Positions 29,676 through 53,125 of a stretch of DNA of 64,000 nt are shown here, piece after piece. Position numbers and translations under genes: made by a program. The DNA is from Plesiomonas shigelloides (lineage in GTDB: Bacteria > Pseudomonadota > Gammaproteobacteria > Enterobacterales > CAMTGL01): positions 1,674,001 to 1,738,000 of the forward strand of contig NZ_LT575468.1 in the NCBI RefSeq assembly GCF_900087055.1, in the 5' to 3' direction. The notes beneath the pieces are model-generated. The model did no database searches and was not told the origin of the DNA. It saw nothing but the letters and a program-made list of their open reading frames with translations. Position 1 is the stretch's first letter. Each line of letters begins with the position of its first letter.

Positions 29676-29822
29676 ATGAGAAACCAAGCAAATAAGTATG
29701 TACAAGAGGCTAACCTGTGGTACTATCCATCTCGCCGGCCTGTAAAGCAGACCTTATTTATGCAACAATTTGATTCTGAACGCTTCGCTACACCGCTTAA
29801 CTTTGTTAGTACGTTGTCCTGA
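29676..29822 (+). CDS. Candidate 48-residue small protein upstream of csp
   Basis: An ATG-to-TGA frame of 48 codons lies in the presumed long leader of the cold shock gene. The product begins MRNQANKYVQEANLWYYPSR and has a mix of basic and aromatic residues; it has no membrane segment. The ribosome site is weak (ACGAAAAA). Length alone does not prove it is translated, as frames of this size arise by chance. I do not recognise the sequence. Confidence 0.35.
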   Translation: MRNQANKYVQEANLWYYPSRRPVKQTLFMQQFDSERFATPLNFVSTLS

Positions 29823-29918
29823 AGATTTTCGTTCAATTGGTCATCATAAATATTTCTTTATTCTGGCTAGAACGCGCTATGCGTAATGTTTAACTTTTAA
29901 AGATTTTCAGGAGACATC

Positions 29919-30128
29919 ATGTCTAAATCTACTGGTACCGTTAAGTGGTTCAACGAAGAGAAAGGTTTTGGTTTCATCACTCAAGATAACGGCGGTGCTG
30001 ACGTATTCGTTCACTTCCGCGCTATCCAGAGCGAAGGCTTCAAGACCCTGGCTGAAGGTCAAAAGGTTTCTTTTGACGTTGAACAAGGCCAGAAAGGTCC
30101 TCAAGCAGCTAACGTAATCAAGCTGTAA
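29919..30128 (+). CDS. CspA-family cold shock protein
   Basis: A 69-residue single cold shock domain that binds single-stranded RNA and DNA and melts RNA secondary structure. RNP1 is KGFGFI (about 15-20) and RNP2 is VFVHF (about 29-33). It ends ANVIKL, in line with CspC/CspE/CspA types; the exact paralogue cannot be settled. AGGAGA precedes the start at the right distance. A terminator follows at 30164. The long AT-rich leader resembles those of cold-inducible csp mRNAs. Confidence 0.95.
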
Positions 30129-30163
30129 TTGAGTCCTCCTACGGAACTTCGGTTTCGTAAGAC

Positions 30164-30191
30164 AAAAAGCATCCTTAGGGATGCTTTTTTT
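30164..30191 (+). terminator. Terminator of the cold shock gene
   Basis: An 11-bp stem aaaaagcatcc/ggatgcttttt with a 4-nt loop and a T run. Confidence 0.92.
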
Positions 30192-30657
30192 ATGTCTGTA
30201 ATTCTCATCCCCCCTACTCTTTGTTTCCTTTTCTTTCCCTAGAAAACTTCAATCCGGTCATCAATTTCTTTTAGCTTTCTTACGCTAGTATCCTTAATTA
30301 CACTTTTTCTTAGCCTCTCCTTACCAAAAAGTAATTAGGGATAAAACACTGGCTACGCAATTCAGCATTTACTGCAATATTTACGAGCTTTGTTGAACGC
30401 TCATCCTGAACACAATCATCACGTAATATTATGTAGAACCGAAATTATTACTTATTGATGCGTTACTACACATTGTGTGCATAAATAAAGCAATTAAGAA
30501 TGAAAAGAGATGAAGGAATAACCGAATGTGCACAAAAGCCAAAACACGGAAGAAAATGGGAAGGCAATAAAGATACGAGTATTAGGAATATTCAGCAGAT
30601 GGCGCATTACGGGTAACATGCGCCATTGACTTTCAAAAGCCGAGAATCCTGTAGAAT

Positions 30658-35069: not shown

Positions 35070-35366
35070 TTATTCCTTTATTGTGGCATTTTCCACACGG
35101 GCTTTAAGCTTTTGCCCAGGCTTGAATGTCACTACCCGACGGGCAGTAATCGGAATATCCTCTCCAGTCTTGGGATTGCGCCCAGGTCGCTGGTTTTTAT
35201 CACGAAGCTCGAAGTTTCCGAAACCAGATAGCTTAATCTGTTCGCCATTCTCCAAAGCCTTTCTGATTTCCTCGAAAAAAGCTTCAACCAGATCCTTGGC
35301 ATCCCGTTTACTGAGCCCGAGGCTTTCAAACAGATTTTCTGCCATTTCGGCTTTGGTGAGCGCCAT
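35070..35366 (-). CDS. ihfA: Integration host factor subunit alpha
   Basis: A 98-residue DNA-bending protein that pairs with IHF beta. [21 protein letters not shown] begins it, the family signature is [22 protein letters not shown], and the beta arm carries the conserved Pro. The length matches E. coli (99). Only four bases separate it from pheT, as in the E. coli operon. Confidence 0.97.
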
Positions 35367-35370
35367 AGAT

Positions 35371-37758
35371 TTAGTCCCTCAAGGATGCTTGGAATCTTAC
35401 TTTTAACGCTTCCACTATGCCAGACACAGCGTTAGCGATTTCCTCTTCTTCCAGTGTACGGGAAGTGTCTTGTAGAGTCAGACTGATCGCCAAACTCTTA
35501 CAACCATCATTTACACCTTTTCCACGGTACACGTCAAATAAGTTTACGCCAACTAACTGATTTCCGCCAACTTTCCGACATTCATCGATAATATTTTGTG
35601 CAGAAACTGACTCATCGACCACAATAGCAATATCACGACGGTTCGCAGGGAAGCGAGAAATGCTCTGTGCAGAAGTGATGGTACGCTGAGAAATCTTGTC
35701 CCACAGCACTTCAAACAGCATGGTGCGACCATTCAGATCCAGCTTACGCTCCAGTTCCGGATGCAGTGCACCAATGAAACCGATTTGCTCGCCATCCAGT
35801 ACCAGCGCAGCGCTTTGGCCTGGGTGCAGGGCTGGGTTTGAGCAAGCTTCAAACTTCACATCATCCAGACGGCCGGTCAGCTCTAGAACAGCTTCCAGAT
35901 CGCCTTTCATGTCAAAGAAATCAACGGTTTTGCTTTCCTGACCCCAATGCTCGTTGCTGCGGTTACCAGTCAACAAACCGGCCAGCATCACTTCCTGACG
36001 CACACCGTTTTCAGCCGCCGCATCTGGCACAAAGCGCAGACCGCTTTCAAAAATGCGCACACGTGGTTGCTGACGGTTCTGGTTGTAAACCGCAGCACCA
36101 ATCAGACCCGACCACAGAGACAGACGCATTGCAGACATGTCTACCGAAATTGGGTTTGGCAGGATCATCGCCTCTTCACCCGGATGCAGCAGAGCTTGCA
36201 CCTTAGGATCAACGAAGCTATAGGTGATCGCTTCTTGGTAGCCCTTATCAACCAACGCCGCTTTCACACGCTTCAGCGGCAGATTCGCTTCGCGGTGATC
36301 GTTCATACGCAGTTCAGCCAGTGGAGCTTCATTTGGAATATTATTGTAACCAAAGATACGGGCCACTTCTTCGACCAGATCTTCTTCAATTTCCATATCG
36401 AAACGCCAAGATGGCGCTACCGCTGTCCAGCCTTCTGCAGTCTTGCTCACTTGGCAACCCAAGCGAGTCAGGATATCTGTAACCACGTCATCTTCAACAT
36501 GGTAACCAATCAGAGCATCCAACTTGCTACGACGCAGCGTAATGGTCGCCGCTTGTGGCAGATGGGCCGCAGAGGTCACATCAACCACTGGACCGGCTTC
36601 ACCGCCGCAGATTTCCAGCAGCAGCGCGGTAGCACGCTCCATCGCTTTGTTCTGCACCGCGTAATCCACACCACGCTCGAAACGGTGGGAAGAGTCAGTG
36701 TGCAGACCGTAAGCACGAGCTCGGCCAGTGATGCTCAGTGGGCTGAAGAAAGCACATTCCAGCAGAACATCTTTAGTTTCTGCCGTTACGCCAGAGTATT
36801 CACCACCGAAAATACCGGCCATCGCCAATGGACGGCTATGATCAGCCACCACCAGAGTGTCGGCACGCAGGGTCACTTCATTGCCGTCCAGCAGAGTCAG
36901 CTTCTCGCCCTCTTCTGCCATACGCACCACGATACCGCCATCAATCTTCGCGTGATCAAACGCGTGCATTGGTTGGCCCATTTCCAGCAGGATGTAGTTA
37001 GTCACATCCACCACAGGATCGATAGAGCGAATACCGCAACGACGCAGTTTTTCCTGCATCCACAGCGGGCTGGTGGCGTTCGCATCAATACCTTTGATGA
37101 CGCGACCCAAATAGCGTGGGCACGCATCCGGTGCGCTCACCTTGATTGGCATCACGTTGTCGATGCTCGCGGCAACTGGGCTGATTTGTGGCTCAGTCAC
37201 TGGCAGACGGTTCAGTACGCCCACTTCGCGCGCGATACCCAGCATGCCTAAGCAATCAGCACGGTTTGGCGTCAGACCAATTTCAATCGCGTTATCGTTA
37301 AGCTTCAGATATTCACGAACGTCCATACCCACTGGCGCATCAGCTGGCAGCTCGATAATGCCATCTGACTCAACCGGAATCGCCAGCTCGTCGAAAGAAC
37401 ACAGCATGCCTTCTGATGGTTGGCCACGTAGTTTGGCTTTCTTGATTTTGAAGTCGCCCGGTAATACCGCACCCACGGTGGCACAGCACACTTTCAGGCC
37501 CTGACGGCAGTTTGGTGCACCACACACGATATCGATAGGCTCGCCCGCACCGACATCCACTTTGGTCACACGCAGCTTGTCAGCATCAGGGTGCTGAGCG
37601 CATTCCACAACATGGCCAACAACCACCCCCGTAAACGCACCAGCTACTGGCTCTACGGCGTCAACTTCCAGACCGGCCATGGTAATTTGTTCGGACAGTT
37701 CTTCGGTGCTAATCGCAGGATTCACCCACTCACGCAGCCAAGATTCGCTGAATTTCAT
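35371..37758 (-). CDS. pheT: Phenylalanyl-tRNA synthetase beta subunit
   Basis: A 795-residue beta chain, the same length as in E. coli. It begins [17 protein letters not shown], followed by the tRNA-binding (EMAP II-like) domain, the B3/B4 editing domain, B5, and the C-terminal anticodon-binding domain ending [12 protein letters not shown]. It forms an alpha2-beta2 enzyme with PheS, 18 bases upstream. Confidence 0.98.
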
Positions 37759-37776: not shown

Positions 37777-38775
<999 letters not shown>

Positions 38776-38951
38776 TTACCCTATTCAGGGAATTGCCCGT
38801 AGCCGTAACCTACCAATAAACAAGGATATTATCGTTTTCCTGTCTATTCACCAAACGCTAATACGGTTCCGAAGACAATACCGGATGCACGTTACAACCG
38901 GATTGTGCTTTTTTCATCGTTTCCGCATGTTTTTCTGACGATAGCACCAAT

Positions 38952-38974
38952 AAAAAAGCCTCCCAGAGGGAGGC
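38952..38974 (-). terminator. pheST attenuator
   Basis: On the minus strand gcctccc-tct-gggaggc is followed by six T. It lies about 50 bases after the Phe-rich leader peptide. An upstream gggagg (38 bases earlier, at 39019-39024) can pair with the cctccc arm and so prevent the terminator. This is the layout of Phe attenuation. Confidence 0.92.
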
Positions 38975-39026
38975 TTTTTCTGCATTCGTCTTTCGTTTCT
39001 TTTCTCAGAGCGAAGCAACCTCCCGA

Positions 39027-39077
39027 TTAACAGGGGCTAAAGAAGAAGAAACGAAAAAAGAATGTATGGACAGTCAT
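39027..39077 (-). CDS. pheM: pheST leader peptide PheM
   Basis: A 16-codon frame reads MTVHTFFFRFFFFSPC, with seven Phe codons in two runs. It lies between rplT and pheS and ends before the attenuator. E. coli PheM (14 residues) has the same role: when charged tRNA-Phe is scarce, ribosomes stall on the Phe codons and transcription goes on into pheST. The sequence is not identical, but the position and Phe runs make the assignment firm. Confidence 0.93.
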   Translation of the reverse strand: MTVHTFFFRFFFFSPC

Positions 39078-39299
39078 TAAGTGCTTACCAAATTGTTTGT
39101 GTTCTACTTTACTGCGCCAGCTTCAAGCTTAGAGCTTCGATTTTCTCAGCGCCGCTTTGACTGGTTTTACCAAACTGCCGATGACTGAGTCAATCACTAC
39201 TGCATTAATACCAATCTACCCGAGACTCGCTCTAACTAACCTGCACTACTGGCCAATATGCTTGCGATAGACCATGTGATACAGGAGCCAGAAATGAAT

Positions 39300-39320
39300 A
39301 AGGGAGGCAATGCCTCCCTT
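39300..39320 (-). terminator. Partial terminator after rplT
   Basis: Stem aagggaggc/gcctccctt with a 3-nt loop, 14 bases after the rplT stop, followed on the minus strand by TTATTCATTTC. The T run is interrupted, so some read-through to pheM-pheST is expected. Confidence 0.75.
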
Positions 39321-39333
39321 ACCCGAGTTCGGC

Positions 39334-39699
<366 letters not shown>

Positions 39700-40013: not shown

Positions 40014-40556
40014 TTACTGTTTCTTCTTAGGTGCGAGCACCATGATCATTTGACGTGCTTCGATTTTGCTCGGATACGATTCAACCACAGCAATTTCTGC
40101 CAGGTCGTCACGGATACGGTTCAATACCTCAACACCGATCTGTTGGTGAGCCATTTCACGACCACGGAAACGCAGTGTGATTTTGGCTTTATCGCCTTCT
40201 TCAAGAAAACGAATCAGGTTGCGTAGTTTGACCTGATAGTCGCCTTCATCAGTACCAGGACGGAATTTAATTTCCTTAACCTGAATAACTTTTTGATTTT
40301 TCTTCTGTTCTTTCGCAGCCTTGCTCTTTTCATAAAGGAATTTGCCGTAATCCATGATTCGGCAAACCGGCGGCTCTGCGGTAGGACTAATTTCTACCAG
40401 ATCAACGCCTGCTTCTGCTGCTTTTTCACGAGCATCATTGATGCTAACTACACCGATTTGCTCGCCATCGATGCCAATCAGACGGACCTCACGAACGCGA
40501 ATTTCTTCGTTGATACGGTTTGGTCGCGTTGGCTGAACTCGTTTTGCGCCTTTAAT
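40014..40556 (-). CDS. infC: Translation initiation factor IF-3 (AUU start)
   Basis: A 180-residue factor that keeps ribosomal subunits apart and checks the start codon. The frame must begin before the first ATG: codons upstream read [19 protein letters not shown], matching E. coli IF-3, and the first codon is ATT at 40556. The rare AUU start lets IF-3 limit its own translation. The Shine-Dalgarno AGAGGAA lies in the last codons of thrS, four bases before the start. The C-terminal domain ends [11 protein letters not shown]. Confidence 0.97.
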
Positions 40557-52853: not shown

Positions 52854-52930
52854 TGGTACACCCAAGTGGACTCGAACCACCGACCCCTACCATGTCAAGG
52901 TAGTGCTCTAACCAACTGAGCTATGGGTGT
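52854..52930 (-). tRNA. tRNA-Val (anticodon GAC)
   Basis: A 77-base gene with encoded CCA. The anticodon stem ctacc/ggtag has loop TTGACAT. The acceptor stem ACACCCA/TGGGTGT begins with A1-U72. It is identical to the next copy. Confidence 0.95.
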
Positions 52931-52960
52931 ATGTTGTACAGGTTGCTTATCTGCTGAATT

Positions 52961-53037
52961 TGGTACACCCAAGTGGACTCGAACCACCGACCCCTACCAT
53001 GTCAAGGTAGTGCTCTAACCAACTGAGCTATGGGTGT
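52961..53037 (-). tRNA. tRNA-Val (anticodon GAC)
   Basis: The second copy, identical to the first across its 77 bases including CCA. The spacer between the two is 30 bases. Confidence 0.95.
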
Positions 53038-53048
53038 ATCGCAGATTT

Positions 53049-53125
53049 TGGTGCGTCCTAGTGGACTCGAACCACCGACCCCCACCATGTCAAGGTGGTG
53101 CTCTAACCAGCTGAGCTAAGGACGC
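53049..53125 (-). tRNA. tRNA-Val (anticodon GAC)
   Basis: The third gene, first to be transcribed. Its acceptor stem is GCGTCCT/AGGACGC and its anticodon stem ccacc/ggtgg, so it differs from the other two and is closer to E. coli valV/valW. The spacer to copy two is 11 bases. Confidence 0.95.

Follow-up and report, generated by a model that had tools for sequence, protein, structure and literature searches.

Does the DNA between rplT and pheS in Plesiomonas shigelloides hold an attenuator of known type, and is the peptide that it appears to encode a new one? Enteric bacteria have an RNA switch by which phenylalanyl-tRNA synthetase is raised when charged phenylalanine tRNA is short. A first-pass annotation, made from the sequence, had proposed a complete Phe attenuation module with a new leader peptide. 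We followed up this proposal in the 64,000-nucleotide stretch of DNA that holds the locus (the window), in the rest of the genome, and in loci from other bacteria.

The claim of a complete pheST attenuation module stands: the match to the RNA family RF01859, the surrounding genes and the leaders found in 17 named relatives all agree with it. We conclude that the element is, with high probability, an ordinary pheST (pheMST) transcription attenuator of the PheM type, located on the minus strand and having a locally altered leader peptide. Our confidence is slightly reduced because Thorsellia lacks the leader and because a looser form of our shuffle control is weaker; both points are given below.

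The leader frame and the RNA element

The leader is located directly before pheS-pheT, in the gene order infC-(rpmI)-rplT-leader-pheS-pheT-IHF-type gene. The genes that frame it are as follows.

35070..35366, minus strand: HU/IHF-type DNA-binding protein gene (PF00216, 112.9 bits)
35371..37758, minus strand: pheT, phenylalanyl-tRNA synthetase beta chain (TIGR00472, 936.8 bits; cut-off 402.65)
37777..38763, minus strand: pheS, phenylalanyl-tRNA synthetase alpha chain, the presumed regulated gene (TIGR00468, 397.9 bits; cut-off 237.45)
39334..39690, minus strand: rplT, the upstream neighbour (TIGR01032, 174 bits; cut-off 65.65)

We take the gene between infC and rplT to be rpmI and, by its position, the HU/IHF-type gene at 35070..35366 to be ihfA. 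The same gene order is found in E. coli. The infC frame (40014-40556, minus strand) has no in-frame ATG, GTG or TTG in its first 67 codons and is compatible with an ATT start at 40556-40554, after AGAGGAATAAGCTT; E. coli infC has an AUU start. Farther away in the window, there is an Rfam match to the cspA thermoregulator on the plus strand (29779-30192, 111.5 bits), and three consecutive tRNA-Val (GAC) genes occupy 52854-53125 on the minus strand.

The putative attenuator and its promoter consist of these parts.

38949..39078, minus strand: Phe_leader RNA element (Rfam RF01859), the whole attenuator (71.1 bits, model positions 1-125 of 125)
38952..38980, minus strand: intrinsic terminator hairpin, arms 38980-38968 and 38964-38952, with 13 pairs and a T tract
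38983..39064, minus strand: protector hairpin, in which the Phe-codon strand pairs with the segment preceding the terminator (minimum-energy structure)
39018..39024, minus strand: antiterminator 5' strand GGGAGGT, whose partner is GCCTCCC (38974-38968) in the terminator
39027..39077, minus strand: pheM-type leader frame, from ATG at 39077 to TAA at 39029-39027
39164..39193, minus strand: putative promoter, found by eye, with TTGACT, 18 bases and TAAAAC, and a TG one base before TAAAAC

The seven-Phe leader of the first-pass annotation is indeed present: on the minus strand, 39077-39027 runs from ATG to TAA and encodes MTVHTFFFRFFFFSPC. This peptide has 16 residues, and its seven Phe codons are arranged in two runs (39062-39054 and 39050-39039) with a single Arg codon between them. 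When all short-ORF starts of the 64-kb window were counted (8-30 aa; ATG, GTG or TTG; both strands), one of 2736 had at least seven Phe, and this was the leader frame itself. Dinucleotide shuffling of the whole window, carried out 20 times, produced 2 such starts in total. The coding pattern F-F-F-R-F-F-F-F (Arg = CGN) is present as a single copy in the 3.4-Mb genome, at the leader. An NCBIfam search, for which the leader peptide was padded because it falls below the tool's minimum length, gave no match.

Upstream of the frame, a Shine-Dalgarno-like GGTAAG is weak as judged by eye, and a consensus promoter/terminator scan listed neither a promoter nor a terminator at the leader. We infer that in Plesiomonas shigelloides a promoter serves this region, that the leader is transcribed and translated, and that it responds to Phe. 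An 11-base palindrome, TGACTCAGTCA (39182-39192, minus strand), overlaps the possible -35 element TTGACT; it is missing from the compared stretch in all eight aligned relatives.

At the RNA level, the match to RF01859 at 39078-38949 scored 71.1 bits against a curated cut-off of 55 (E = 4.7e-10 in the 64-kb window), and a scan of 38700-39340 with Rfam found no other family at its cut-off. The 130-nt fold has a z score of -6.24, and none of 200 shuffles was equally stable. The GGGAGG (39024-39019) and CCTCCC (38973-38968) strands and the terminator that had been proposed are all in place, with CCTCCC lying within the terminator 5' arm and the 3' arm continuing into the T tract. One detail of the proposal was wrong. 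The stop codon had been said to overlap the start of GGGAGG; it is at 39029-39027, 2 nt away from that strand. The overlap may have been meant in the sense that GGGAGG would lie under a ribosome positioned at the stop.

Just after rplT, the minus strand also carries an inverted repeat, GGGAGGCATTGCCTCCC (39318-39302), which occurs once in the genome and in which the arms of the pheST terminator recur in reversed order. In its place, a GAGGGAG/CTCCCTC-like hairpin follows rplT in the eight aligned relatives. We considered the GGGAGGCATTGCCTCCC hairpin as a part of the switch and rejected it, given its single genome copy and the different hairpin of the eight relatives; a role as the rplT terminator or as an RNA end is more probable.

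Leaders before pheS in related bacteria

To place the leader among its relatives, we took the best 80 named loci from a PheS search of a species-representative collection and ran Rfam on 36 of these 80. A match to RF01859 before pheS was present in 17 of the 36 scanned loci (L003-L019, among the best 80 listed), from Dickeya, Superficieibacter, Enterobacter, Proteus, Serratia, Pantoea, Erwinia, Tatumella, Samsonia, Buttiauxella, Photorhabdus, Xenorhabdus and Providencia. The 19 scanned loci that lacked a match came from Aeromonas, Pasteurellaceae, Shewanella, Vibrio and others, including Thorsellia (L046). For Enterobacterales, this amounts to an RF01859 leader with an FRFFFYF core in 17 of 18 scanned pheS loci (among the best 80 listed), where we assume the placement in this order of every scanned locus other than Thorsellia. 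Thorsellia, which NCBI assigns to Enterobacterales, had neither the RF01859 match nor the combination of frame and hairpin before pheS. One Enterobacterales MAG (L020), with 104 bases upstream of pheS, was kept outside the 18-locus tally.

A simpler test was applied to all 80 loci, in which up to 420 bases before pheS were searched for a 7-32 aa frame containing four or more Phe and for a GCCTCC..GGAGGC hairpin. Both were present in the same 17 loci of 80. L020 had the hairpin only, and thirteen other loci had the frame without the hairpin. When RF01859 was searched in 247 sampled genomes of the order, with pheA and pheST leaders pooled, 134 had a match and 81 were over the cut-off.

An alignment of leader peptides in relatives, which the first-pass annotation had named as a check, yielded 17 leaders with an FRFFFYF core. 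The core is found in 17 of 17 relatives' leaders, so Tyr is present in all of them. Eleven of these leaders have 14 codons with 5 Phe, and two, L016 and L018, have 8 Phe. The alignment of 18 leaders yielded a consensus structure that shows almost no covariation: the covariation term was 0.12 kcal/mol, with a two-sided change in 5 of 31 pairs. The leaders are too alike for more.

Computed switching and its alternatives

In the mechanism that we propose, the transcript through the region would carry the short frame for the 16-residue Phe-rich peptide. With plentiful Phe-tRNA, a ribosome would get to the stop and cover GGGAGG, the terminator would form, and transcription would end before pheS. 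With scarce charged Phe-tRNA, the ribosome would wait at one of the seven Phe codons, where it would break the protector hairpin and leave GGGAGGU free. The freed strand would pair with the terminator 5' arm ahead of the synthesis of the 3' arm, allowing RNA polymerase to continue into pheS-pheT. If the leader is not translated, the protector hairpin would form and lead to termination.

We modelled these states on nascent RNA by masking the bases covered by a ribosome and folding the transcript up to the terminator 5' arm, with a footprint assumed to extend 12 bases beyond the first base of the codon in the A site. For the window, an A site at any of the seven Phe codons gave an antiterminator pairing of 0.98-0.99, and the upstream partner of the terminator 5' arm in the minimum-energy structure was GGGAGGU. 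The pairing was 0.02 at the last sense codon (Cys) and 0.04 both at the stop and in the absence of a ribosome, the last value being low because a long hairpin holds GGGAGG. Stalls at Thr5, Arg9 and Ser14 also gave 0.97-0.99, and a stall at Pro15 gave 0.82. Since non-Phe stalls free the antiterminator strand as well, the Phe specificity would come from the codons and not from the fold. In the relatives, the stalled value exceeded the value at the stop in 17 of 17 leaders (0.82-1.00 versus 0.01-0.33), and the no-ribosome value was at least 0.49 in six of the 17 (L003, L011, L013 with 0.99, L017, L018 and L019).

As a control, the segment from the stop to the terminator was shuffled 1000 times. 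Thresholds fitted to the window (stalled at the last Phe codon 0.95, stop 0.1, no ribosome 0.1) were passed by none of the 1000 shuffles and by none of the 17 relatives. The stalled threshold of at least 0.95 alone was passed by 62 of 1000 shuffles, but none of these also kept to 0.1 or less in both the stop and the no-ribosome states. Because these thresholds were fitted to the window and no relative passed them, we added a looser control. All 17 relatives reached a stalled value of at least 0.8 with a stop value of at most 0.35, and so did 11 out of 1000 new shuffles; when a no-ribosome value of at most 0.65 was also required, 15 of 17 relatives passed, along with 10 of the 1000 shuffles.

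When the full RNA is folded at equilibrium, the terminator of the window wins in all ribosome states (P = 1.00). Three of the 17 relatives (L004, L015 and L017) behave like the window, their terminator reaching at least 0.99 in each of the two stalled states, whereas the other 14 keep the antiterminator to some degree in at least one stalled state. Since the terminator wins on the full RNA, the switch must act during transcription, with the antiterminator forming first.

The same equilibrium result could be read as the sign of a weakened attenuator, one that has lost its Tyr codon, has a moved stop and, with a 13-pair terminator, mostly terminates with little regulation. In 14 of the 17 relatives the full leader does not show the window's terminator dominance (P = 1.00) in every ribosome state. 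However, the nascent-chain calculation switches cleanly, and in the canonical leaders L004, L015 and L017 the terminator likewise stands at 0.99 or above when stalled; we consider a weakened attenuator very unlikely. It is still less probable that the hairpin is a plain terminator between rplT and pheS, with the Phe-rich frame being no sensor and arising by chance from a strand rich in pyrimidines. The strand is indeed of this kind and pairs with a purine-rich one, a terminator by itself would account for the hairpin and the T tract, and short frames with seven Phe do arise by chance, if rarely (2 starts in 20 shuffled windows). However, a frame with Arg and Phe codons and an antiterminator strand are common to 17 relatives, and the whole matches RF01859. 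The least probable alternative, to which we give almost no weight, is that the RNA structure is mainly an RNase III processing site before pheS: passages of PMC5371410 report that the E. coli pheM attenuator RNA is cut by RNase III and that transcript decay is affected, but they treat this cleavage as an addition to attenuation, and the Phe-rich frame would be left unexplained.

Comparison with known Phe leaders

Besides the pheST leader, a scan of the window's own genome with RF01859 found only one other leader, which precedes a chorismate mutase/prephenate dehydratase gene.

G000:C1:2526781-2526915: pheA (PheL-type) leader of the window's own genome (54.9 bits, just below the Rfam cut-off)

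This leader is also Phe-rich (MPLFFMVFFFSFFSRPH from ATG) and shows the same computed switching; it belongs to a different operon. In the pheA-type protein encoded after this leader (L119 238-2280; 680 aa), the chorismate mutase and prephenate dehydratase parts precede a diverged DAHP-synthase-like region, which spans residues 438-647 (PF00793, 59.2 bits, far under the DAHP synthase NCBIfam cut-offs). The genus and family samples are the same two genomes, the window's own and that of a congener. The congener's best match to RF01859 also lies before a chorismate mutase/prephenate dehydratase gene; two weak matches (35.9 and 35.5 bits) occur there as well, and pheS is absent from its assembly, which is 75% complete.

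The closest known type to the pheST leader is the Phe-rich PheM peptide of E. coli. Compared with its PheM relatives, the window leader has 16 codons with 7 Phe, and Tyr is absent. Three Phe stand before Arg, where the commonest form in relatives has one. The stop is TGA in 16 of 17 relatives and TAA in L006; the window has TGT at this place and TAA one codon later, so that the spacing from stop to antiterminator is 2 nt in the window and 3-5 nt in the 17 relatives. Alternatively, the window peptide may be described by a Tyr-to-Phe change together with a one-codon shift of Arg. Among the 247 genomes sampled from the order, the pattern F-R-F-F-F-F-S(AGY) was found in a single one, that of the window, and the canonical F-R-F-F-F-Y-F-(S/N) in 14, all in one family of the sample (exact matches, Arg = CGN).

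These changes might mean that the leader was re-tuned in this lineage, to a Phe-only sensor and a purely kinetic switch with a threshold unlike that of most enterobacterial forms. Such a reading draws on the Tyr loss, the two Phe beyond the commonest five, the stop one codon nearer the antiterminator, and the terminator that outweighs at equilibrium; we regard it as possible but rather unlikely. An ordinary PheM-type attenuator remains our preferred reading. As to the peptide, what had been called new does differ in sequence, having no Tyr and a later stop, but it is a PheM orthologue that shares the core FRFFF-FS. By eye and by alignment, this core occupies the same place in the structure as that of the relatives, in a peptide too short for statistics. 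We therefore reject a new peptide type, because the core is common to the relatives' leaders, and the word new is weakly justified for this leader peptide.

Attenuation of pheST is reportedly covered by a 1983 E. coli paper and by surveys of 2001 and 2004. PMC5371410 and PMC9291695 describe E. coli pheM as a Phe-rich leader through which the phenylalanyl-tRNA synthetase genes are attenuated, and its RNA as subject to an RNase III cut and a transcription pause. According to a citation in PMC1262725, pheST attenuators have been observed in gamma-proteobacteria. PMC2965389 is a survey of attenuators, and the available part of its main text has no mention of pheM, pheS or pheA. The novelty here is limited to sequence variation in a known family, and no new question is raised. 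The window adds one divergent case, with Tyr absent and the stop moved, to the classical attenuator, and it illustrates how an RNA family and operon context identify a leader even when ordinary gene calling passes over so short a peptide.

Relative to the RF01859 model, the match is full-length, with a few extra bases in the window after the antiterminator strand and before the terminator; a few bases are likewise inserted relative to eight aligned relatives. With the PheM/pheMST type of Enterobacterales, the window shares the position between rplT and pheS, the Phe-rich core FRFFF-FS, the protector hairpin, an antiterminator strand of GG(A/G)GG type immediately downstream of the stop, and a terminator with GCCTCC/GGAGGC. 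Judged by its sequence, the window peptide is a lineage-specific wording of a known device, with small changes to PheM.
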